The notes under the pieces: model-generated
Database searches by the model: none
Told to the model about the DNA's origin: nothing
What the model saw: the letters and a program-made list of their open reading frames with translations, nothing else
In this document: one piece after another, positions 21,432-35,502 of the stretch
Numbering within the stretch: the first letter of the stretch is position 1
How the letters are laid out: the number at the start of each line of letters is the position of its first letter
Origin: Zasmidium citrigriseum
Taxonomy: Eukaryota > Ascomycota > Dothideomycetes > Mycosphaerellales > Mycosphaerellaceae
Assembly (NCBI GenBank): GCA_002786025.1
Contig: NHNW01000019.1
Coordinates: 124,001-188,000, forward strand
Direction of reading: 5' to 3'
Length of the DNA: 64,000 nt
Program-made: the position numbers and the translations under genes

Positions 21432-21840
21432 TTTGGCGGAAGAGTTGTTGGTGATTAAGTATTAGACAGTAAAGTATGGCTCGTGAATCCTTGCTGGGTT
21501 GAGAGACTCTGGAGTTTGCTGATGAGAGAGATTGAAGAGTCGAGGAAAGAGGAGATACTTTATACCTTCCCAAGCTCGGATGCCACTGCCATAGAAGATT
21601 CTGCCATGGTGGCATGCACGTTCCCTACTGGTACATGCCAGCACTCACGATGGACGATAATACGAGATCCCATGACGCTGACGCTTGCCGTAGCAGAGGT
21701 CGAAGAGCAGGCACGACGTCAAAGCGGAGTCGTCGGTGTGAGGCGCGAGCTCCGAATACGGGAGGTTGTGGTCGTCGGTGAGGCTTGGCTCGGCAAGGCG
21801 GCGAGTAGTGTTGTTGACTCACCGTGTCTGTAAGGATTGT
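21432..21840. promoter_or_regulatory. Cerato-platanin promoter and flank of the transposon block
   Basis: TATAAA on the minus strand at 21559-21564, about 128 bp before the start codon at 21431, is a likely TATA box. The rest, up to the first terminal repeat of the outer transposon at 21841, has ordinary dinucleotide use with many CA and TG steps, so RIP has not spread into it. Confidence 0.6.
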
Positions 21841-21891
21841 GCTTATGGCCACCCATAAAATCACAGTGGCCATACTAAAAACATGAGCGTG
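21841..21891. repeat. Left end of outer hAT, un-RIPped
   Basis: GCTTATGGCCACC starts at 21841 and CACAGTGGCCATAC at 21862. Together they form an imperfect palindrome around ATAAAATC. Several CA and TG steps survive here; they stop abruptly after about 21890. Confidence 0.7.
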
Positions 21892-22004
21892 TATATATTA
21901 GAAGAGGAAATAAGTAAGTAGGTCTATATAAAAGTAGATAAGCGTAGTATAGTAATATACTAGTAGTAGTATAACTTTAAAGGAAAGGGATTAAGGACTA
22001 TATA

Positions 22005-22301
22005 TTAAGTACTACTACTACTACTACCCTCGCTAGTAACTAGATCGTCGTTAATATTGCTTCTAACAATGCTACTAACGCCTTTAGAGTTATCGTTATT
22101 ACGGAAGACTTTATTAAGAATATTAATAGAGTTAGTAAAATCGTTATCTTCGAGCCTATTATTATTAATCTTATACTTAATACGGAGGTTCTAGTATATA
22201 AAGATAAGCTTCTCGAGGATATTACTATCTAGTCTATTACGGCGAAGGCTCTAAATAAAGCTATAGGCGCTCTAGTTACGCTCGGCGGCTCTAGTTATTA
22301 G
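22005..22301 (-). pseudogene. C-terminal hAT dimerisation domain of the outer transposase, RIP-broken
   Basis: Read on the minus strand from 22301, the frame contains AAERN, then a TAG where the family has Trp, then SAYSFI, a second TAG at a Trp or Gln position, and SLRRNRLDSNILEKLIFIY. This is the ERNWS..F..IHSKKRNRL..EKLV.(I/V)(Y/H).NLR signature at the C-terminus of DUF659/hAT-C transposases. The frame closes at TAA 22005-22007 after a Ser run. All internal stops are TAG, as expected from RIP of TGG or CAG. The rest of this gene lies 10 kb away at 32453-34060 because the inner element interrupts it. Confidence 0.85.
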
Positions 22302-22317
22302 TAGGTATTACTATAGG
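22294..22317. repeat. Left target duplication and TIR of inner hAT
   Basis: GTTATTAG at 22294-22301 is the 8-bp target site. TAGGTATTACTATAGG at 22302-22317 is the left TIR. Both are matched exactly at 32429-32452. A TAGG start is what RIP would make of a hAT-like CAGG end. Confidence 0.92.
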
Positions 22318-22509
22318 TTTATATATATCCTATCCCGGTAGGGAAGGGATATAGATATCTATCCCCTAGGATAAGGTAGGATTTAGGATTTCCCGATCCC
22401 TATAGGAAAAGGGATCCCTTAGGTTAAAAGGGCTCCCTTATATAAAAAGGGATCCCTTTTCCTATAGGGATCCCTTTTAACGCGGGATACTAGGAGGCTA
22501 AAAAGAGAT

Positions 22510-22531
22510 CCGTAGTAGTAGCGTAGTAGTA
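22510..22531 (+). repeat. 22-bp subterminal direct repeat, left copy
   Basis: CCGTAGTAGTAGCGTAGTAG followed by TA; an identical copy lies at 32280-32301, in the same orientation, near the other end of the inner element. It belongs to the GTAGTA motif family found about a dozen times in the element. Confidence 0.8.
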
Positions 22532-22544
22532 GTTTAAAAAGAAA

Positions 22545-22806
22545 GTCTTAATTAGATATAGTAGTAGAAGTACTTAAATATCTAAACGGATACCTCTAGT
22601 ATATAAGTTCGTCTCCTATAGAAGGTAGATCTACTTAAAGACAAGCTACTCGTATACGCTTAATAGACCTAAACGTCCTTTTAGAGGCGTAGCTATAGCG
22701 TGTCTTTAAGTAGATTAACCTTCTATAGAAGAGGAGTAGCGTAAACTACTTAGCTAACCCGCCTAAATACTTATACGAGTATATCTACTACTATATCTAA
22801 TTAGAC
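22545..22806. repeat. Foldback inverted repeat inside inner hAT
   Basis: Two arms of roughly 110 bp pair with each other. The left arm begins GTCTTAATTAGATATAGTAG, the right arm ends CTATATCTAATTAGAC, and the inner parts (TACTTAAAGACA and TGTCTTTAAGTA; CTTCTATAGAAG-type blocks) also match, with some mismatches. The loop is a few tens of bases. It could be a small non-autonomous insertion or a structural part of the element end. Confidence 0.75.
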
Positions 22807-23189
22807 GACAATAATTCTAATATATATAAATAGCCTAATATAGTACGGTTATAATAGGCTATATAGCCTAATTTTAGGCCGAATCGTTCTATTAACCGAG
22901 TTAATATAGATCTCGAACAGGCCTCTTACTTATACTTCTTCGTAGATATAATAAGTTCGACGTCGACGTTAGAGGCGATAACGATATTAAGGATAATATC
23001 GCCTTCGTTACTAGCCTTCGAAATATCTTAACTTCCTATAGCCGCGAGGTATATTCTTAAATAGTATCTTCTTCCCCTTTAAATAAAGGATTATAGTAGA
23101 GATCGTCCCTAATCTCGGTAACGATCTTACGCTAACTATTATTAAGAGCGATACGAGCTATTATCTAGTCCGAGAAGTTAGTTCCGTTA

Positions 23190-24230
23190 TATAGGCGATT
23201 AAAGCGATTCTAATACCGCGTAATACTAAATAGGCGCTTAATAGTAACGCTAGTACTAGGTACGGCGAGAATATTACGGGCGACTTAAGCTAGCTATAGA
23301 TATAGATACTCGATTAGCTTCTATAGCTTTAAAGGGTCGTCGCTAACTTTAAGGTTAAGGTATACTATAAATAGTTAGTAACTACTACTATAGTACTACT
23401 ACGGTACTACTACGATATAACACTTACTAGTAGTTTTATAGTTCTTAAACTCCTCTTCTATCGTTATCGCTACCGTAGTATCGGGCTTATTACTAAACGA
23501 AAAGTTACTATCCTACTAAGAGTTATCTATTACCGTAGCGAAGTCCTTAGCTAGTATAAAATCTCGGTACTTCTTAAGGAAGAGCTTCTTTAATAATTCC
23601 TAGTACTATCCTTCCTATTAATCGTTATCCTACTCTTTCCGTCTAAAGAATACGTTCTTCTACGTAGGTACTAGCAAAACTATATATCCGTATATATAGC
23701 TAAGGGATAACTAGGTTATAGAGTAGTACTTAGACAGCTTAGCTCTAGCGAGCGATACCGCCGAGAGGAGCGCCTTACGCTAGTAATTAGTACGCCGATT
23801 AAGCTCGTCCTTAGCCTCCTTAATTTAGACGAAGAGGCGCGTATAATAAGCGTAGATAAGGTAAAGTATAGGGCCTAAAGAGCGGCTAATCTTCGACGTT
23901 ACTACTATAAATAGCTAAGTAATTTTAATAATCTCCTTAACCTACTAAAGCTCTAATTTGTCTAGTCGAAGATAATCTAGGTCTTGTCCTTAGAGGAACT
24001 CGTCGATAAATCGATAGATTTTAACGTAACGTATTAGTATATACGTTATTAAGTCCTAGCGCGTCGTTATATCCTATATAGGTATTAATAGACGGGTCTA
24101 CCGTCGCTTCTTATTAAAGGCCCCTCCGCTAACCGACTTCGTATAGAGAGTGTTTTCTTTCTCTAAGTACTTCTTCTAGAGATCGAGAAAGGCTTCCAGC
24201 CGCTATATACTTGCTAAAATCTAAAGGATA
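23190..24230 (-). pseudogene. hAT transposase of the inner element, RIP-broken, with one clear intron
   Basis: The minus-strand frame contains a TTR-stop-D motif matching the hAT TRW(N/D)S block, then RFIDEFL, YLRLDKLEL and KEIIKITQLF. A long helical middle follows, with KEAKDELNRR and ARAKLSKYYS, the usual LAKYY block. An intron runs from a GTAAGT donor at 23427 to an acceptor at 23365, with TACTAAC before the acceptor. Then the C-terminal dimerisation domain reads DDPLKL, a stop where Trp is expected, ARNILAVPSTSVTIKRLFS and a basic end. That matches the DPL.(F/Y)W...A.(D/N)ILA(V/I)P(A/S)(S/T)...ER.FS pattern of fungal hATs. All in-frame stops are TAG or TAA. The N-terminal part, probably reaching toward 26 kb, was not traced. 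Confidence 0.85.
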
Positions 24231-25986
24231 GAAGCGCGGAGCTAGTAAAAAAATTAGTACTACTACGCTACTACTATAGTTAATATTCCGAACCTTAGCT
24301 AGGATATATAGATATCCGTAATTAATATTACGCGTTTCCTTCTTATTCTCTAGCGCTTCGCGTTAGTCCTTCTTATTCTAGTTACGCTTAAACACCTCGT
24401 TCTTTAGTCGAATCTTAAGGGAATCGTAGAAGTCGCTAATAGTAAGTTATATAATATAAGCGAGATACGGGACTAGCTACGGTCTTTCCTTTAAGGTCTT
24501 CGTATTATATTCGTTATCGCCTATCTACGCTAGCTAGCCCTCCGGGTTAGTTACTATTAAGCTTAGAATAGGGAGAGGCTCGGTATCTTCGGTAGTAAGA
24601 TAGGTTTTATTAGTATAGGTAGCTATATATTTAAGACTATTTACTATTAGCTACTAAAACGCGGAGTAGGTAGTATAACACTTATATCGAATTATGTAGA
24701 GTCTTATTATTTAAGGCGTTATCTATAGTAAACGTAGAGATACGCTTCTTAAGCTTATACCGTTTAATTATAGTATTAACGTACTTAGAGAGGTTTATAC
24801 TAGTATAGCGACCCTAGATCTCGTCGAAAGCGAGGAGCTCTTCGTAATAAGTCTAATCTTAATTAATCTAGAAGCCCTTTATTCCGAGATAGGCGTAACG
24901 ATAATTTGAAGTACTCTAGGTATCGAGGACGATAGTAACCTTTAAGTTAATACTCTTTAGCGACTATAGCTTATTAACGATTTCTTTTACTAAGTTCTTA
25001 GCCGCGGAAGTTACACGGCGCCGAATCGTAGTAGGCGAGAGGAATTCGGCCTTCCTATCTAAATACTTATAGCTCCGCTTTATATAAAGGTTTTCGAAGA
25101 ACGTTATAGGGACGCCTATACTAATACACACGTTTGCCTAAAGGTCTTTAAAGTCTTTAGGGCCGTAATCGAAGCCGCTAGCGAAGATAGCTTCTTCTTT
25201 CTATCGCTTACTCTATCGATATCTTAGCCGTAGTAGTACTATAGTAGTAGTTAATATTAATATACCTATACTCGAAAGCCCTCGAGAATAGTTCCTTAAC
25301 GCTTTTTACTAGTTCTAATTCTAGTAAGTCGATAGTCTAAGGTGTCGAGGTGTCGAGTTATACTAGAATTCCTATTATTCTTAGTAGCTAGGTATTTAAG
25401 GACTCGGTTATAAACCTTATAGATAATCTTTAGCTCGCTAGTAGTAATAAGAATTCCTTTGTCGTAGTATTCCTACTCTCTAGCTATCTTCTTAGATCTA
25501 AACTTAACTCCCCTAACGCCTCGTTAACTATAGCGGTCCTTAGCGGTAGCCTAAAGTAAGATCCCCTATAGTATTTAAGACTAGAACTTATTAAACTATT
25601 CGTAATATAATCGATCGTATATATAGTAGTTAGCCTTCTTAATAAACGTTATATTTACGAAATCGATAGCCTCTCGCGTATTCTAGTTATCTAAACGTAG
25701 CGAAGAGATTAAGGAGGAACTAGCGGCGGTAGTTTTTAATCGAGTATTAGTAGATAGACTCTCTAAGTTTACGGTTTCCTATAACGAAGGTTCTTACGAG
25801 GAGGTCTGCTATAAGGCTAATAGACGTAAGGTAGATAGGCGTAGAGACCGTCGAACTTGTCTATTTAGAATATCTAGATTAATAGTACGTTAGCGTAGAG
25901 GTGTTACGGGTAGGCGAGGCTAAGAGCTACTTACGAAGGATAATATTATAAGAGAACGCGTAGCGCGATATAAATAAAGAGGTACT

Positions 25987-26056
25987 AGTAAGAAGGGATC
26001 TCGTATATCCTAAGGGACGCGGCTATCCCTTAGGATAAAAGGGATCCCTTCTTACT
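25987..26056. repeat. 70-bp hairpin
   Basis: AGTAAGAAGGGATC at the left pairs with GATCCCTTCTTACT at the right, and ATCCTAAGGGA pairs with TCCCTTAGGAT inside, leaving a CGCGGC loop region. Related AAGGGATCCCTT palindromes occur near the left end of the element (22407-22470). Confidence 0.7.
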
Positions 26057-27299
26057 ACTCTTAGCTTAATTAATAGGCTAGTAGTAGTATACTCTTATAG
26101 CTTAGTAGAGAGGCCTAAGTCGTATAATATAGCAATCTACGGAAGATAGGGCTAGAAAGAGTTAGTCGTACGGCTCGTTCTCGTAGATTATACTTTAGTA
26201 TTATTACTTCTAAGGTAGAGTAGCGCTAAAAGCGCCTTAGAGTCGGTAGTACGGCTCGTTCTCGCTTAGCTAACTATCTTAGGTATAGACTAACTTATAT
26301 CCGAGATATTCCTCGTATCTCTCTATACGTATAGGCCCTTAGTAGTAAGCTTGGAAATAATATTAATTCTTTCTATATCGAGGACTAGCGTTAGGGTTAT
26401 AGACGAAGGGTTACTTAGGGTTAGAGGAAAGGCGGCGACGACGAGGTTAGAATTGCGAGGACGAAGAAAAAAATTAGACTATAGTAGTACGTAGTAGTAG
26501 TATAAAATACTAGTAAAATTTCAGATTGTCTAATAAACGTAGAGGTAAGCTACGAGGAGTTAATTAAATCTCTAGATTTATCGGCCTACCGAAAATTAGG
26601 CCTAAAATTGTTAATAAATAAATATCGTGTAAGTACTACCCTATCTTCGCCCTTAAGACTCTTCTTAGGTACTAATAAATAGAATCGATATTAATAATAG
26701 AGATATATCTATTTAGAATTTACGCGACTATCTACTTTTAAAAGCGCTAGCGGCCTATACCTAGCTTAAAATATTAGGATCCTTAGGATCCTCCGCTAAA
26801 AGACGCGTCTCGCCGATACTATTAATATTAATACTATTATTAGCTAGCTTCTCTACGAACTCCTACAACTCCTTTATAGACTCTAGATCCTCCGTAGCGA
26901 CCTAGCTATATCTATCGTAATAGCTAGGATTATCTAGCTATACTACCGCTAGGCCTAGTAACGTATATACCTCTTTATTATCTATCTCTCTATTATCTAT
27001 CTTTTCGACCGTATCCTCGAAGACTATATCCTCGAACTATAGTTCCGCTAAGTACTTACGGCGGCTAAGCTACTAAGGATAACGAGCCTCTAGACTCTAA
27101 GATACGAGATTACTCTATAGCGATATCTTAGCTCTCGTGAAAAACTTATATAGTATCGGTAGGCGAGCACTACTATTTATCTAGGCTACGAAATTATTAT
27201 ACTCGTCCTACGAATTCGTTAGTAAAGCTCTAGTAAAACGAGTAGTAGACGTACTAGCTCCTTAGGCTCTCGAATATAGAGAGTACGAATATTATTAAC

Positions 27300-28110
27300 T
27301 CTATACTAAGCTTTAGCTAACTTAATTATACTAGAGGCGCTAATAGGCTTATCCGCCTTATCTATCTACTCGAAATCCTAACGCTTGCTACTAAAAGCTA
27401 TTCTCCTTTCTACTTTAATATAGCGGCTATCGACGTATAGTATATCGTATATATACTACTTCTTTATTAAGCTACTACGAACTTCTATCTAGGCTTTAGT
27501 AGGGCCGCGACGGTAACGGGTATCGAAGTCTATAGCGAACTTCTTTATTATCTCTAAGTAGGCCTAGTCGGGATCTATAGTACGAACGGGACCGAGACTA
27601 TTATCTACCTCTACTAGACCGTAGAGCTCGCTATTATCTTCGTCTTCGGCGATAAAATCCTAAAGCTTATCCTCTTTATTAGACTCGTTACTATATATAT
27701 AGTTAGTATCTACCTCGACTACTATAGTACTACTACGGTCTCTAATATATCTAAACTTACGGCTTAGGTAACGCCGGCTCGGGCTCCTCGGCTTACTTAT
27801 CCTTAGAGACCTCCTTATCCCTCTCCTTAATAGCGGCTCTATATTTACTATTAGTATATATCTCGAATATAGTAGTACTAGACCGCTAGGACGCCTAGAT
27901 ATTAATATACTAGATTAACTTCTCTCGCTACTAACGAATTGCGTCCTCTATCGCCTACTACGTCTCTAGCGGGGCCTACTTATACTTCTTATTCTTATTC
28001 TTTAACCGCCGGATCGCCGAATCTCTAGCCTTCTTTAGATTCTTAACCTTTCTAGCCGCCTTACTTAGGTTATTATAACGCTTATTTTCCTTTACACTAT
28101 TATTATTCTT
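27300..28110 (-). pseudogene. RIP-broken gene of unknown function in inner hAT
   Basis: Minus-strand reading gives long frames interrupted only by TAG/TAA. The upstream exon is Lys/Arg-rich and helical (LSKAARKVKNLKKARDSAIR). After an intron-like segment with TACTAAC (complement of 27702-27708) and acceptor near 27691, a second exon reads DFIAEDEDNSELYGLVEVD and then KKFAIDFDTRYRRGPTKA. I do not recognise a family. Limits are approximate and the two exons may be parts of a larger gene. Confidence 0.5.
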
Positions 28111-29460
28111 TGAATACTAATATAGCTAAAGACGCTTCTACGGCGTCGCCTTAGCCTTAGTTCTCTTACGCGATTATAGTGTCGCTAGCTCTAGGGAGGC
28201 CTTTCGCTTCGACGATCTATATAGCGTACTAGTATCTATTTTAGCGGACGAGACTATAGTCGGCGATACTTACGATATACGAAGGACTTCGAATACGACG
28301 TTACGAGTGTAAAGATACGAGTTAAGGATATAGAAAGCGTAGCGAAGGACGATATCGCTATTAAAACAATTAGCAAAATATTAACGAAGTTAGCGTTACT
28401 ATAGAAACTTACCCTCCTCTATCTACTATAATACTACTACTAAACTACTAGATAGGTTACCAAGACGGTGTTATTTAGAATAGAAGAGCGAGGTAGAGGC
28501 GAGGAGTTAATATAGTACCTACTATAGCAATTACTAGTTATATATAAAGCGCTAGCGAGTAAAGCGATAACTAAGACTTTAGTAATAGCTTAATATACGA
28601 GATAGGCCCTCGAGATTAGGCACGGTAAGTACGAAGAGAATAGAGCGAGAGATCTAGCGATAAATACTACGCTATAAGGGCTAGCTAGTTCGAATCTAGA
28701 GTACGAACTAACCGTAGTAGTACCGTAGTAGTAAAACTTTTTCGGCTAGCCTAGATAGGGGTAGCGGACTTCTAGTACTATACTCCTTTCTACCTTAGAG
28801 ATTTTAAGAGGGTATACGAGACTATCTAAAGAGTCGTAAGGATTTAATCTATAAACCGTTTTATTAAATACTAATAATATCGTAGTATTAATTTTACGTT
28901 ACTTACTAGCTCTAGCCTTACTCTAATCGATCGAACGAACTATCGTCTAAAAGCGGAAGTGTAGTACTTAAGCCCGAAGGAAATTCCGCTAACGGTCGAA
29001 TAGACTTATAGCGTTTAGAGCTTAGTACTAGCGCTAGCCGTACTTTCGAGACGAAAGGGGAGGAAAGTTTAAGGGGAATTATAATATAGAGGGATTAACG
29101 ACTAGGGTATAGTATAATCTTATTTCTTCGCTCCGTAGGCCCGCGTATTTCTCGTCCTGAAAAAATTAATAGCTAATAGTCTATTAAAGCTAAAGCCTTT
29201 GGCGCCGTCGAGATCTTCGCGATCCTCGACGTCTACTCCCTAACTATTACTTAGAGATCGAGAGAGTATTATAGAAAATTAATATAGCGGCGAGCTAAGA
29301 TAGAATCTACCTACTAGATATTAAGATAGTTCTACCGCCTATATATACGTACGAAAATCGACCTAGAGCCTCTAGTAACGCCGCGATCGATCTAACTCGT
29401 CTATTATTAAAGTTAAAGAATTCTTAGCACTAAGGTAGTAAACGACTACTACTGCTATTA

Positions 29461-29874
29461 AAGACTCTAAAAAGCCCGTTAAAGAATCGGAACTACGAAC
29501 CGAACTAGTATTAGATACTAAGGCGAGCCTTTAGATCGAAGTATACTAAATAGTATTAGCTAAGACGAAGATATCGTTTTAAGCTAGGTATAGTCGCCCT
29601 CCGTAAGATACGAAATACTTAAAAACATTAGGAGCTACTTATTCCTCGACTACCTTTCGCAAGACTAGTTCGTAAAGTTATAGCTACTTTCCGAGCTAAT
29701 ATACGCTTCTAATTAAACGCCCTCTTCGCGCTTTAAGAAGTAGCTAAGACCTTCCTTATTAGCGAGTTCGAATATATATAACTTCTCGCGTACTATATAA
29801 AACGAGTTACTATAAAGGATACCGATATACGGCTAGTTAGATAGCTTCATTATAAGATTATACTAACAAGATAA
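29461..29874 (+). pseudogene. Histone H3-like (H3/CENP-A-type) histone-fold gene carried by inner hAT, RIP-broken
   Basis: One plus-strand frame (codon phase set by CGT at 29575) aligns without gaps to the histone H3 core. The alphaN region reads RFKLG(I/T)VALRKIR (29575-29613). After stops at 29620 and 29629 comes ELLIPRLPFARLVRKV (29632-29679), the alpha1 helix. Then FRANIRF, stop (29710), LNALFAL, stop (29734), EVAKTFLISEFEY (alpha2), stop (29779), and YYIKRVTIKDTDIRLVR (loop 2 and alpha3, 29791-29841), stop at 29842. The stops at 29620, 29710 and 29734 fall exactly where H3 has Gln (RYQ, RFQ, ALQ), as RIP of CAA would give. A basic tail (RRAFRSKYTK and LRRRYR) precedes the core. Many non-RIP differences from canonical H3 show it is not a recent copy of the host gene. 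Whether it is a whole gene or a domain of a larger protein is open; the true start is unknown and TAA at 29872 is a possible end. Confidence 0.85.
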
Positions 29875-31473
29875 TAGACTACTACTATAGACTACTACGG
29901 TCTATCTAGAACCTAAAGTTCGTATACCTCTACCGCGAAGTTACTAGTAAAGCCGTAGCTAAATCGTGTTAAGATAGCCGCGCTCTCGAGGACCTCTAAA
30001 AAGGAAGCTCTAAACGTTAGAAACGCTATAGCTGTCTTTAATATTTTTAATGTCCGAGAGGCGCCTTCGGGTACCTTAACTACCTCTAGTCCTAAACCTA
30101 CTACTAATATTACTATTAGGCTTTCTCGAACTATATAGCGCTAATCTTTAAAGGTATCTCGCGTATATATTAACTCTTTAATAGGCTGTACGAATCTTCT
30201 ATACTAGAAGCTAGAGACCTTACTATCGCTACGACTTCGCGGCTATACTCGAACACTTCTATTCTTACGCTATATCTTTATTCGAGACGACTACTATAGT
30301 AAAGACTAGCTAGAGTATCGAGCTTAACTACCTTAGATATTACGAATCTCTTAATCTAAATACCTAAGCTAGAGAATTTTATCTAGCGAAGTACTATATA
30401 TATAGCGAGTATCTAGCTCGACTACTACGGTACTACTATAGTCTCGAATATATTAAAGATTAGACTATCGTCGGGACTATAGGCTTTTAAAGCCTAAGGA
30501 TCTAGCCTCTAGTACTTCCGCTACTCTAGACCTTCGTTTATCGACGGTATATTACTAGAATATAGTTGTACTTCTTAATTAGGATAGATAGATATCTCGA
30601 TACTTAAGCTAGGCGCTAGAATACTACTACTTATCGCTTCGAATCTCCGTTAGCTTCTCTTCGTTAGCGACTCTATACTAGCCTATCTTATATCTCGACT
30701 ATTATCTCGCTACTACCTTAGATATTATCGATAGCTTTAAGCTACTCGAAGCCTTACTTTACTAAATAGTCTATTATATACTATATATACTAGAGTTTAC
30801 TACGGAGGCAGTTACGACTTACCTATCTCGCCTATATATAGTCTCGATTACTACTCGCTACCCTTCTCCTCGATATCGATAACCCCCCCTTAATATCGTC
30901 GCTAGCGGTAAGGGCTATAGTAGAGGATACTTAATAGGTATAACTAACCTCGCTACCGATATCGTCGCTATACTAACTAATAGTAGAACCTTACTACTAG
31001 CGGCTCTATAGCGACGCTAGCGAGTCGTTACTATAGTAACGCTAGCGTTGCTATTAATAACTTTAGCGACGAGCTCGAAATCCTTCCTCCTCGAACTATA
31101 CTCTACCTACTATACTTATACCTTCGCCGTTACCTATATACGAATTATACGAATACGATAGCGAAAACTAAGTAGACCGCGAGTAGCGCCGTTACTAGCG
31201 GTAGACTAGGCGCTAAAGCGAAGCGACTACGTAAGACGCCTAGACTAATATAAGTTAAGAAGAGAAAGGCTACTCGGAAGGCCCTACTAGAGGGCAAATA
31301 TAAGTATAAGACGAACAGATTCGGAGAGCGTATAATAACCTAGGCGCCGCGAGTTTCGAAGTATTAGACGATAAGTATATTTTAACCGTAGTAGTACCGT
31401 AGTAGTCTAACTTTTTACTAATATTTAGATAGGTAAGATAGACCGCGAGATTAAGTAGTACTAGTTAAACGGA

Positions 31474-32340
31474 GGAGTTAAGAAGTTTAATAAGACGATA
31501 GAGGAGGTATTTATAATTCCTCGGTAGAAGTTCCTCTTATACGTAAAGGAGTTTATTTAGGAGGAGGCGCTTAGGGTTAGAAAAGATACTACCTTCTTCC
31601 GTATTACTAAGGGTACTACTATTTTGCTATAGTCGGTCGCTAAGGGTACTCTCGTCGAGCGCTTCTATAGTATACTTTTCCTATCTAGCTTTCGGTTTAG
31701 GCTATACTAATTTATAAATAGTAGTAATAGAGGCTATCCGTTACCGCGTTAGCGAGAAGAAGTAGGCGGCGAAGAGTGCTCGTACTATAATAGTTAACGA
31801 CTTTAATCTCTTCGAGCGTATAAGTAACTTAAAGTAGCTCGTTGGCCTACGTATCGCTATTCCTACTCGGTTCGCTAAGAAGTCGCTTACCTACGCTAAG
31901 CCCGGCCGCGATTTAGAGGAGGCTCTAATCTTAGGCTATACTAGAACGACTAGAGAGTAGAGATAGATAAGGGCGTTTAAGAAGCTAGTAAAGTAAGCCG
32001 CGTAGACGAATACTACTACGCTAGACTAGCGGGCTTTCTAGGCCTTATACGTCGACCGCTTCGATAACTAGCGCACTTAGGGCAATTAGGGCCTAGATCT
32101 AAACTCGTAGTTAACGAGTAACTAGATAGTAGCTCTTTCTTTAAGCTTTCTCTTCGATCGAGATACCTAGTACTTACTAATACGTAGATAGCTTCTTTAT
32201 AATAAAAAGGACGCGAGTAGCGTCTTCTAATATACGAAAACTTTATATCTACTCTCTCTAAGCCTTATATTCTAAGCCTCCGTAGTAGTAGCGTAGTAGT
32301 ACTTTATTTCCGGATTATTCCTAGTTATCCCTTCTTTATC
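31474..32340 (+). pseudogene. RIP-broken gene(s) of unknown function at right end of inner hAT
   Basis: Two successive plus-strand frames stay open except for TAG/TAA. The first (31474 to about 31735) reads KKFNKTIEEVFIIPR, then FLLYVKEFI and TKGTTILL. The second (31781 onward) reads RTIIVNDFNLFERISNL and RFAKKSLTYAKPGRDLEEAL. An intron-like segment with CTAAC and TTTAG (about 31389-31435) lies just upstream. No family is recognised. The frame change between them suggests another intron or an indel. Confidence 0.45.
32280..32301 (+). repeat. 22-bp subterminal direct repeat, right copy
   Basis: Identical to 22510-22531 in sequence and orientation, 143 bp inside the right TIR. Confidence 0.8.
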
Positions 32341-32428
32341 CCAATATCCTAAGGGTCCTATTACCTTAATCTTTATCCCTTTCCCTAATCTTACGGGAAG
32401 GGATAAGGATATATATAACCCTTCCCGT

Positions 32429-32452
32429 CCTATAGTAATACCTAGTTATTAG
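32429..32452. repeat. Right TIR and target duplication of inner hAT
   Basis: CCTATAGTAATACCTA at 32429-32444 is the exact complement of the left TIR; GTTATTAG at 32445-32452 is the second copy of the target site. Confidence 0.92.
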
Positions 32453-34060
32453 ATAGATAGATAATACTAGTATATAGAGTTCCGTAAAGTTAGGGTACCT
32501 ACTCTTAAAGTTATTATACTACTACTTAATAGTAGATAGTCTCTTACTAGTAGCCTAGATTACGTTATCGTTAAATAGGCCGTAATAGTTCCGTAACTTA
32601 AATAAGTCGGCTAATAACGCTCTAGCTCTTTCTTTAATCTTAAGCTTAGACTCGAGGGTACTAATAGGTGCGGTAAGGGCGGTAGGTCGTCGCTACTTAG
32701 TATAATAGTCAGTAAGGAACTCGGTAAGGGTATATATCTCGTCGTTATCGATAATAATTCGTAGAGGTTTAGAGCGCTCTACTAGATTAGCGAGATAGGC
32801 GATAAGTATTAAGAGGTAGTATAGCCGCTCGAAGTGCTTCTTAATATAGACTTCTATCTTATTATTAGTTAATAGGCCGTTATTCTAGGTAGTATTACCT
32901 AGCTATTTAAAATTACTATATATATAAGAGAGTAGAGGCTTATCGTACTTAAGAGCGATAGTTACCTTAAGGAATAGCTCTATTAGATCGAGGTAGTACT
33001 TATAGGTAATCTAAAACTACGGCTATAGATAAACCTTAGAGATAAAGGACTACTTACGCTATTACTCGGCGGTAGTACGGTCGAGGAGCCGTCCTTAGAC
33101 CTTTATAATACTACTATAGTTCCGTAATCTAGTATCTATTATTATAGACTACCTTAGCTACGTAGAGCCTACTCTACTACCTTATCTTACTAGCGTTTTA
33201 GAAGTAAGCGTAGCGGCCGCTACTAATCTCGTCTAGTAGCGTAAATAGTAGGTAATAGTTACGGAAGTATCTAGAGACGAAGTCGATATCTATAAAGGCC
33301 TTTTCGACTTTATACTCCTTCTATAGGTCGTCTATAAGTAGTTTAAGTTAGTATAAGTAGTAGCTAAGAGTAATAATTATAGGGAAGTATTATTATACCT
33401 AAGAAAGCTAATTTAGTTAGTATCTAAATTAATACTTAATAAAGTTTAATAGATAAACGGCGCGGCCCGTTAGCGGAATAGCGGCCCGCTTTACCTAAGG
33501 TATCTACTAATATTAAACTCTTACCTTTATTTAGGCTACCTTTATTATAGAGGTATTATCCGCCGTTACTACTACTACCTTCTCTAGCTAGCGATTAATT
33601 ATAGTAATAAGACCCTCCGTATAATACTCTACTATCGAACGAACCGCTCTAGTCTTATTATAACCTAGGAAGAAGGCGGCGGTACTAGTAACGGCTATAT
33701 AGTTATATATACCTCTACCTCGTACGTTAGACTATCTATCCGTTACTAACGTTAACCGCTTATACTTCTTAAGCTCGGTATTTATATTATACTTTAGAGT
33801 ATCGTATAGGCGAGGTAGGTACTTATTTCTAATAGTCTAGCGTATTAGCGGTTTAAAAGCCGGCCTAAGGTTACTAATTATCTTAATAAAGGTAGGGTAC
33901 TTAGTCGTATATATAGGTAGGCTAGTAGTAAAGATCTACTTAGCGACGGCCTTATAGATTCGATTATTCTCCTTCGCCGTTATATTGTCGATATAGCCGC
34001 TCTAGCCGATTAGAATACGCTAGACCGGCTCCTTAGTAGTATTATTAACCTCGTCTAAGC
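32453..34060 (-). pseudogene. DUF659 and central part of the outer hAT transposase, RIP-broken
   Basis: On the minus strand the 5' part reads NNRIYKAVAK, stop, IFTTSLPIYTTKYPTFIKII and LRPAFKPLI. That resembles the start of DUF659 transposases (..A..F.Y..G(I/L)P...V..P.F..M...). A later part near 32.7-33.0 kb reads YYLDLIELFLKVTIALKYD, LTNNKIEVYIKKHFERLYYL and IAYLANLVERSKPLRIII. The 3' end runs to the inner-element insertion site at 32452 and the protein resumes at 22301. All interruptions seen are TAG/TAA. Coordinates are approximate and the N-terminus probably lies upstream, toward 34.3 kb. Confidence 0.75.
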
Positions 34061-34622
34061 TACTATCGATATCTAGTAACTCTAATACCTTCTTAGGCTA
34101 GTATTTACGCTATAATACCTCTAGTAGCCTCTTATAGATAGTAAGGTAATTTATAACCCTCTTCTTCTTATTTAACGTCTACTACTTACTATAATAATAA
34201 TAGGTTACGTTAGGGTATTAATTACTACGGCTAATATTACGCTTAACCTCCTTCTAGTACTCGCTTTACTTACGCTTCCGTTTCTTCGTAATATCGACGA
34301 CTATAGGCTTAGCGCCTAGTAAGAGCTATTACTAAAGGGGGGTGTTATTAGATATTATAATAAGGTAGTAGTAAGAGCTTAGGTAACGAGGTATAAACTA
34401 GATAGGGTCTAATAGGATAAGAAGCCTCTATTTACTAGTAAAATAGCTGTCTTTTATACCTACGGTCCTATTCCTTCCTACCTAGTTTATAATCTACTAT
34501 AGTAAGGTAGTATATACCTATAACGCGACTATAATCTAGTAAAAGCAAGGAATTAATAAAGAATTAATAGATTACGAAGGTATTAAAATTAAGGGATAGA
34601 TACCTAACCTTAATATACTAGT

Positions 34623-34712
34623 ACAGGCAAATTTGGCTAACAAACTGTGTTTTTAGGGGGAGCCGTTCCCGAGGAATGTGGCCACGGTGGCCATAAGCGT
34701 ATGGCCACTATG
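34623..34712. repeat. Right end of outer hAT, un-RIPped
   Basis: Normal CA/TG content returns at 34623. The segment contains GTGTTTTTAGGGGGAGCC, then GTGGCCAC, GGTGGCCATAAGC (34686-34698) and GTATGGCCACTATG (34699-34712), three copies of the terminal GGCCA core in alternating orientation. Confidence 0.7.
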
Positions 34713-35502
34713 TTTGGAAGTGGGTCCCCATCACTAGCGGCGAGGTGTTAGTGGAGGAATGCTGCTATTTTCGAGGCGGCCGGGTTGTATAGCGCCACCC
34801 GACTCTTGTTGCTCCCTTGCCTTATGTAACGCTGGCGGCCTGCTGTGCGTGAGACTAGAGAATGTTTTGTAGACGGTCGCTTGCTAATGTTAGGCGAGTG
34901 ATGGAATGGGATGGATTGTTTGTGGTGCGAGGGTGAGATGTAACGACGCTCGGGACATCTCTTTCCCCAGCCACCGACAATACGAGGACATCTGGCCAGA
35001 ACTCTCGGTATCAGAAGTGGTGAGACATCTTGCACGGCGACAATCCACTCCTTAATCTTCATCACTCGTGCACTCTTCCCATCAGTCAATCCGCTGGTGA
35101 CCATCCCTGGAGCTCCGCCATTGACAACGAGTTGCAGTCTTGAATGCTGAGCAGTCTCCCTATCAACTGACCGACAGCATCAAAACATTGGGCGGCGGTG
35201 ATGGGGATGACACAATTATGCCCTCTCTCGTACCCATTCGCCATCCTTGCCAAATCGGCAAATTGCTTGTCACGCTGGACGAATAGACCTCAGTCGAATG
35301 GGTTACCGTGATGTCTTCCAGTACGGGATACCACAGATGGCACGGCACCCTCACGGCAGCTCGGGATTAACCCGCATTTCCGAGGGCGGGTTGGATAGCA
35401 TTTTGGAGAGCGACTTCACCTCTTGAACTGCAGTCCTTTCAACAGGACACACAAGATTGGACCTGGAAGAAGCAAGGTCGAGCTAGCAGTCTGTGAAAGC
35501 CT
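34713..35502. other. Intergenic, transposon to AACS gene
   Basis: Ordinary dinucleotide content, no RIP. A 118-codon minus frame (34748-35104) has no recognisable features. The AACS promoter should lie at the right side; no clear TATA was seen. Confidence 0.4.

Follow-up and report, generated by a model that had tools for sequence, protein, structure and literature searches.

Histone H3-like genes inside DNA transposons have been described before. Dhillon et al. (2019; PMC6710886) report a hAT element with H3 in Pseudocercospora fijiensis and five other Mycosphaerellaceae; in the part of that paper accessible to us, the histone is read as one captured housekeeping transcript without introns, and the second H3 copy of an element has a 16-residue insertion. 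Manning et al. (2013; PMC3538342) describe the H3L hAT of Pyrenophora tritici-repentis and, in the available text, ask whether captured genes face selective pressure, adding that H3L may have drifted. The accessible portion of a third paper (Hane and Oliver 2010; PMC3017866) describes repeat R25 of Stagonospora nodorum. Here, we analyse a stretch of 64,000 nucleotides from Zasmidium citrigriseum (contig NHNW01000019.1, positions 124,001 to 188,000; the window), where an H3-like gene lies within a hAT element. The original prediction for this window, made from its sequence, knew of no described hAT with an H3-type histone. That claim falls, since the first two papers, even as seen in part, describe such elements, and the window copy is a member of an already described kind of H3-carrying hAT.

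The window element is a dead hAT DNA transposon copy, mutated by repeat-induced point mutation (RIP), that carries its own H3-type histone gene. We think it quite probable that the histone is a resident gene of the hAT lineage, acquired before the lineage divided into its families and retained for its benefit to the element. A resident, selected histone is favoured over passive capture by the fixed linkage to one transposase lineage, by the agreement of the histone and transposase trees, and by the transversions at third codon positions. This result is drawn from the sequence of one genome. The features of the window copy are the following (families A to F are the H3-like families of this genome).

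22294..22301, no strand: left target site duplication, GTTATTAG
22302..32444, no strand: whole hAT element of family A, 10,143 bp, heavily RIPed; the copies on contigs C11 and C90 share both ends
22302..22317, plus strand: left terminal inverted repeat, TAGGTATTACTATAGG
23105..24454, minus strand: hAT transposase, C-terminal part, conserved with families B, C, D and E
about 23218-23335, minus strand: hAT dimerisation domain PF05699 (E 2.3e-4; 21.4 bits, equal to the cut-off)
24586..25155, minus strand: hAT transposase, N-terminal/catalytic part, stops read through, conserved with families B, C, D and E
25263..27323, minus strand: extra stretch conserved with family C (29% at the amino acid level, E 2.7e-29)
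29563..29859, plus strand: H3-type histone core, alphaN to alpha3, 99 codons, with TAA and TAG as the only stops
32429..32444, minus strand: right terminal inverted repeat, perfect, 16 bp
32445..32452, no strand: right target site duplication, GTTATTAG

If TAA and TAG are read through, the frame from 29401 (plus strand) encodes an H3 core that contains the four motifs quoted for it. It had also been said that the core is broken by TAA and TAG only, and the genome search agrees: the histone match holds three TAG, four TAA and no TGA, and the stops in RYQ, RFQ and ALQ sit at glutamine positions of H3. Within the proposed extent (29461..29874), the recognisable core is 29563-29859, and the part preceding 29563 has no match to an H3 tail above shuffled sequences. 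A check suggested at the time, the Pfam Histone profile (PF00125), places the frame in the histone fold with E 2.8e-20 and 73.2 bits against a cut-off of 26.4; Histone is the sole Pfam-A match in the H3 frame of 21700-35500 at E up to 0.1. A phmmer search of the PDB matched 176 distinct sequences (best E 2.5e-23), and the best 60 of the 176 all carry the name histone H3, in a few cases alongside 'Histone domain-containing protein' or 'Histone H3-like'. The core aligns with host H3 without gaps and is identical at 44 of 99 residues. A chance open frame was rejected on the Pfam E-value of the match together with the seven family copies.

As had been proposed, the H3 frame lies 7.2 kb inside an element with perfect terminal inverted repeats and a target site duplication. 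The repeats are short, as is usual in the hAT superfamily, and in the window copy they are perfect over 16 bp, TAGGTATTACTATAGG reading inwards at both ends, while GTTATTAG flanks each side. The duplications have the hAT length of 8 bp and are specific to each of the three copies read to both ends (GTTATTAG, ACGATACC and TACTCCCC). The transposase shows the dimerisation domain exactly at the cut-off, and its relatives on C120, C133 and C70 also match PF05699. No Pfam match to a BED-type zinc finger appeared in six frames at E up to 0.1, the stretch being heavily mutated. In the six frames of 21700-35500 only Histone and the hAT dimerisation domain reach their Pfam cut-offs; DUF2019 (E 9.5e-4) stays under its own, and Rfam gave no match at gathering thresholds. 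The stretch at 25263-27323 could be the transposase N-terminus or a separate open reading frame (ORF), for example the 'central ORF' of the P. tritici-repentis type; its strand is weakly called, because frames on both strands score. The RIP indices of the element are 2.0 for TA/AT and 0.07 for (CA+TG)/(AC+GT), compared with 0.53-0.55 and 1.27-1.31 in the flanking gene-bearing stretches. Other RIPed AT-rich sequence surrounds the element (21900-22301 and 32445-34900), and a weak DUF659 match under its cut-off (33500-33836, minus strand), outside the element, is perhaps an older hAT.

In BLAST comparisons, the C11 and C90 copies are similar to the window from 22302 to 32444, with identities to the element of 96% and 91%, respectively; in the C45 copy, which has the right end in common, similarity also stops at 32444. 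The C11 copy has an extra insertion of ~0.6 kb, away from the H3 frame. The H3 frame is inside the element in all three copies read to both ends, and the expectation that other copies would carry it between the same inverted repeats is thus confirmed by two further copies with other target site duplications. The left 499 bases have six full matches in the genome, including the window's own, and the right 500 bases have six full matches and one split match. On C121, both ends are found with an H3 match between them, judged by coordinates. A separate insertion of the H3 frame, with ends of its own, was rejected, since the C60, C11 and C90 copies align across the frame from end to end.

The 44-Mb genome contains at least six RIPed H3-like families. 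Pfam gave 49 histone matches genome-wide; the 38 with at least three in-frame stops were counted as H3-like and merged into 36 loci. Thirty-two of the 38 were read, and these divide into seven of family A, nine of B, eight of C and C2, three of D, four of E and one of F. The three D genes lie in one C1 region, at ~305.7-310.9 kb (L012/L013, C1:300000-319999). Host H3 (C71) and host CenH3 (C54) were read from the same genome. Family B is a mobile unit as well, ~8.95 kb long; the duplications at two of its copies are GAGAGGAC and AGTAGAAG. A Pfam scan of its first 6.9 kb, covering five of the six frames, recovers the histone, everything else being under cut-off; in the minus frames of 5 kb of family D it gave only matches under cut-off. 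Families A and B show no DNA similarity at the settings used, but are related in their transposases (29% over 477 residues, E 5e-28), and a profile built from the C-terminal part of both picks up this protein in C, D and E as well.

Lists of H3-like loci (36) and transposase loci (40) were compiled by hand from the hits of the genome search. One hAT transposase lineage is present within 7.5 kb at 28 of the 36 H3-like loci, in every case on the 5' side of the histone: 15 loci have it on the same strand, 0.7-1.4 kb away, and 13 on the opposite strand, 4.3-5.7 kb away. Of the other eight loci, seven are cut off by a contig end no more than 4 kb away on the 5' side, and at the eighth (C76) the transposase is 22 kb off in the right orientation. 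The transposase lineage accompanies the H3-like genes in five families, and in the sixth by coordinates. The arrangement follows the tree: opposite strands in A, C and D, the same strand in B, E and F. The transposase tree (three sequences of A, three of B, one each of C, D and E, none of F) recovers two pairs, A and C (100/100) and B and E (97/96), and the H3 tree has the same two at 95/95 and 97/94, or 96/94 and 93/92 once host H3 is added. For the five families, the two trees agree on one of 15 unrooted topologies; once the two pairs are set, the place of D follows. Long branches, above all that of D, drew a warning from the tree program.

This agreement bears on a reading in which the old lineage is a host family of H3-variant genes that hATs have captured several times. 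Repeated captures are not expected to yield matching trees or a clade-specific gene order, and we regard this origin as improbable. What speaks for it are four intact, unmutated relatives of the element-borne genes (P0012, P0056, P0074 and P0162, listed for Pseudogymnoascus, Paracoccidioides and Talaromyces), which may lie inside or outside transposons, and an intact divergent H3 in Z. citrigriseum itself, on C69. The latter did not group with the element-borne H3 in an earlier tree, though its branch is long. The C69 gene (C69:454895-455158, L002) is unRIPed and very divergent. The four relatives were chosen by eye from 16 read of 233 listed proteins; two of the protein-database searches listed the best 120 of 6,016 and the best 120 of 7,952 matches, mostly canonical H3, and intact relatives are, therefore, surely undercounted. 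A third search yielded no new lead, listing predicted proteins of ~270-340 aa with double scores and nothing else.

Linkage and co-divergence also touch on what the histone might do. If it served transposition directly, in the synaptic complex or by opening target chromatin, and not to avoid silencing, fixed co-occurrence and co-divergence with the transposase would fit such a joint machine equally well. We hold this direct role to be unlikely.

Selection on the histone can be approached through base changes. Within a family, nearly all differences between copies are transitions; for A-A, transversions come to 0.3/0/0 per 99 codons at the three codon positions. Since RIP makes transitions, transversions are the fairer measure between families. 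Eight of the 21 family pairs were tested, and seven of the eight show an excess of transversions at the third position; the p-values are rough, being based on mean counts over related copies. The counts were 19/11/34 for A-C (p 0.002), 22/12/33 for B-E (p 0.006), 11/11/29 for B-F (p 0.002) and 29/12/38 for A-D2 (p 0.001). This pattern shows protein-level constraint on the histone between most of the tested families. It stands against passive transduplication, where a hAT takes up a host H3 transcript that is then a drifting passenger, as do the matching trees and the fixed linkage. Such capture is the reading of Dhillon et al., and Manning et al. also speak of transduplication and possible drift, as far as the accessible texts go. 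The element copies read here are dead, and no intron interrupts the core in A, B, C, E, F and D2, which is what a captured transcript would leave. Two family D genes do not fit this, since apparent introns are not expected from transcript capture, and we consider passive transduplication a poor explanation overall, with little probability.

In D1 and D3, the frame is broken near the site of the second intron of host H3, one codon off. The interrupting stretch starts with GTAAGT and ends with TAG, and the flanking codons match G-T-V-A-L-R-E-I of H3; a further interruption of this kind, in D3, runs from GTATAT to TACTAAC...TAG. From their sequence, these interruptions appear to be introns. The 16-residue insertion in P. 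fijiensis might be the same intron.

How far an N-terminal tail can be recognised differs between families. In family A, the sequence upstream of the core scores no better than shuffles, and a separate first exon is possible. Tail scores are above shuffles in B, D1, D2 and D3, below in A, C and F, and split in E, with one copy above and one below; the control is lenient, as the best of three frames was compared with shuffles of one frame. Family B has an in-frame stretch like K14-K27 of H3, without a recognisable ARTKQTARKS, and family E has a weaker tail-like stretch after an ATA, which RIP could have made from ATG. A missing Lys9 would not be the work of RIP, which alters only C and G and cannot convert a lysine codon into one for another residue.

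CENP-A proteins are marked by tryptophan at position 84 and a longer loop 1, and host CenH3 shows both. A lean towards CENP-A had been read from the motif PFARLV, but this reading is not upheld for family A: loop 1 has the length of H3, Phe84 is kept, PFARLV of the window copy is PFVRLV in the six other family A copies read, and the best tree places family A away from CENP-A. Membership of family A in CENP-A was rejected on these grounds. Families B, E and F do have the longer loop 1, with Trp at 84 where the codon survives (C120) and otherwise TAG, which RIP would make from TGG. The loci of these families with CENP-A-like features include L010, L018, L031-L037, L039, L042, L043 and L046.

In the best tree, the element-borne H3 and the four intact relatives are on one side and host H3 and CENP-A on the other (91/92). 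Together with the family comparison, this bears out the original view of an old, separately evolving H3-type gene in a hAT. The tree contains two of seven A copies, two of nine B, three of eight C/C2 and two of four E; A_C45, E_L042, the C69 variant and four other H3 proteins were omitted, and Cse4 and CENP-A were added. A group of B, E and F with CENP-A is not rejected (p-AU, from the approximately unbiased test, 0.21), nor is one made up of every element gene and none of the relatives (p-AU 0.31); joining the whole set of element genes to CENP-A gives a borderline result (p-AU 0.05). Given the tree and these outcomes, the CENP-A-like traits of B, E and F may be convergent or ancestral.

How might a histone help a transposon? 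The gene would have joined the hAT lineage before the families split, and its product would be made together with the transposase, pair with host H4, and enter nucleosomes on or around element DNA. The residues R49, R52, R69, R72, R83, K115, R116 and T118, which we take to contact nucleosomal DNA, are retained in families A and C. As these contacts are mostly kept, entry into nucleosomes is plausible, though position 63 is proline and position 45 isoleucine. Because its tail differs from that of host H3, the element histone would weaken methylation of H3K9 and H3K27, the marks of repeat silencing. Countering of silencing and marking of element chromatin were among the roles originally put forward, as hypotheses. 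The anti-silencing role, for which the tails give a thin basis, is a tentative and rather doubtful step, and the histone could equally well have a different function in nucleosomes or in the transposition complex. Taken as a whole, a resident and selected histone with a role in chromatin is a likely explanation.

Several observations count against this explanation. The tail of the window copy is unrecognisable, which leaves family A without direct support for the anti-silencing step, and among the intact relatives position 9 is Arg in P0012 and P0056 and Lys in P0074 and P0162. Families A and C have, besides T45 to Ile and R63 to Pro, Leu for C110 and a changed R53. Twelve of the 40 transposase loci have no H3 within 7.5 kb: six have the expected place beyond the end of the contig, two have an H3 at 22-23 kb, and at four no H3 is present within 38 kb. 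On C96, the right-end match is 45 kb from the H3 match, and this copy is, therefore, not contiguous. The A-B transversions (30/22/40, p 0.07) are suggestive and not significant, and, outside the test set, C-F (33/20/32) and A against host H3 (28/16/27) show no excess over position 1. The group of element-borne H3 and relatives has a support of no more than 91/92, D1 and D3 fall apart from the other element-borne H3, weakly (73/79), and the groups of the clade tests were named after an earlier tree had been seen. Finally, no intact element-borne copy was recognised, where loci were picked by their stops and four of the 11 stop-poor histone matches were examined.

If the explanation is true, fungal transposons make a nucleosome component of their own, which would open a direct way to study how repeats evade heterochromatin and RIP or attract them. 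We lean slightly towards a broader view, of an ancient fungal hAT lineage with its own selected H3, with a CENP-A-like loop 1 and Trp84 in some families and no Lys9 in some tails; it may be a natural series of selfish H3 variants that alter host chromatin. Among the papers listed by full-text searches of the open PMC library, with most subscription journals outside this scope, no title or start of an abstract treats the histone as a co-diverging resident gene. For a related set of elements, the constraint between most families tested and the co-divergence with the transposase give a first answer to the question of selection raised for P. tritici-repentis, and the published account of a single transcript capture is worth re-reading.

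The described elements compare with the present one as follows, within the accessible text of each source. Like the window element, the P. fijiensis-type hAT has terminal inverted repeats and 8-bp target site duplications, is RIPed and lies in AT-rich blocks, and its one or two H3-like genes per element also group away from host H3. Its full length is ~9.5-9.9 kb with a 20 bp inverted repeat, compared with 10.1 kb and a perfect 16-bp repeat here; the two were compared by description. Unlike in that account, at least six families are present in one genome and the transposase co-diverges with the histone. R25 is alike in being RIP-degraded, with weak DNA-transposon similarity and a histone H3 match, and unlike in that no hAT ends are described in the available section. 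The H3L hAT of P. tritici-repentis shares the dimerisation domain and an H3-like gene distinct from both H3 and CenH3, but it occurs in forms of 5.6 kb and 2.3 kb, as nearly identical, unmutated copies with expressed sequence tags, and has a third, 'central' ORF.
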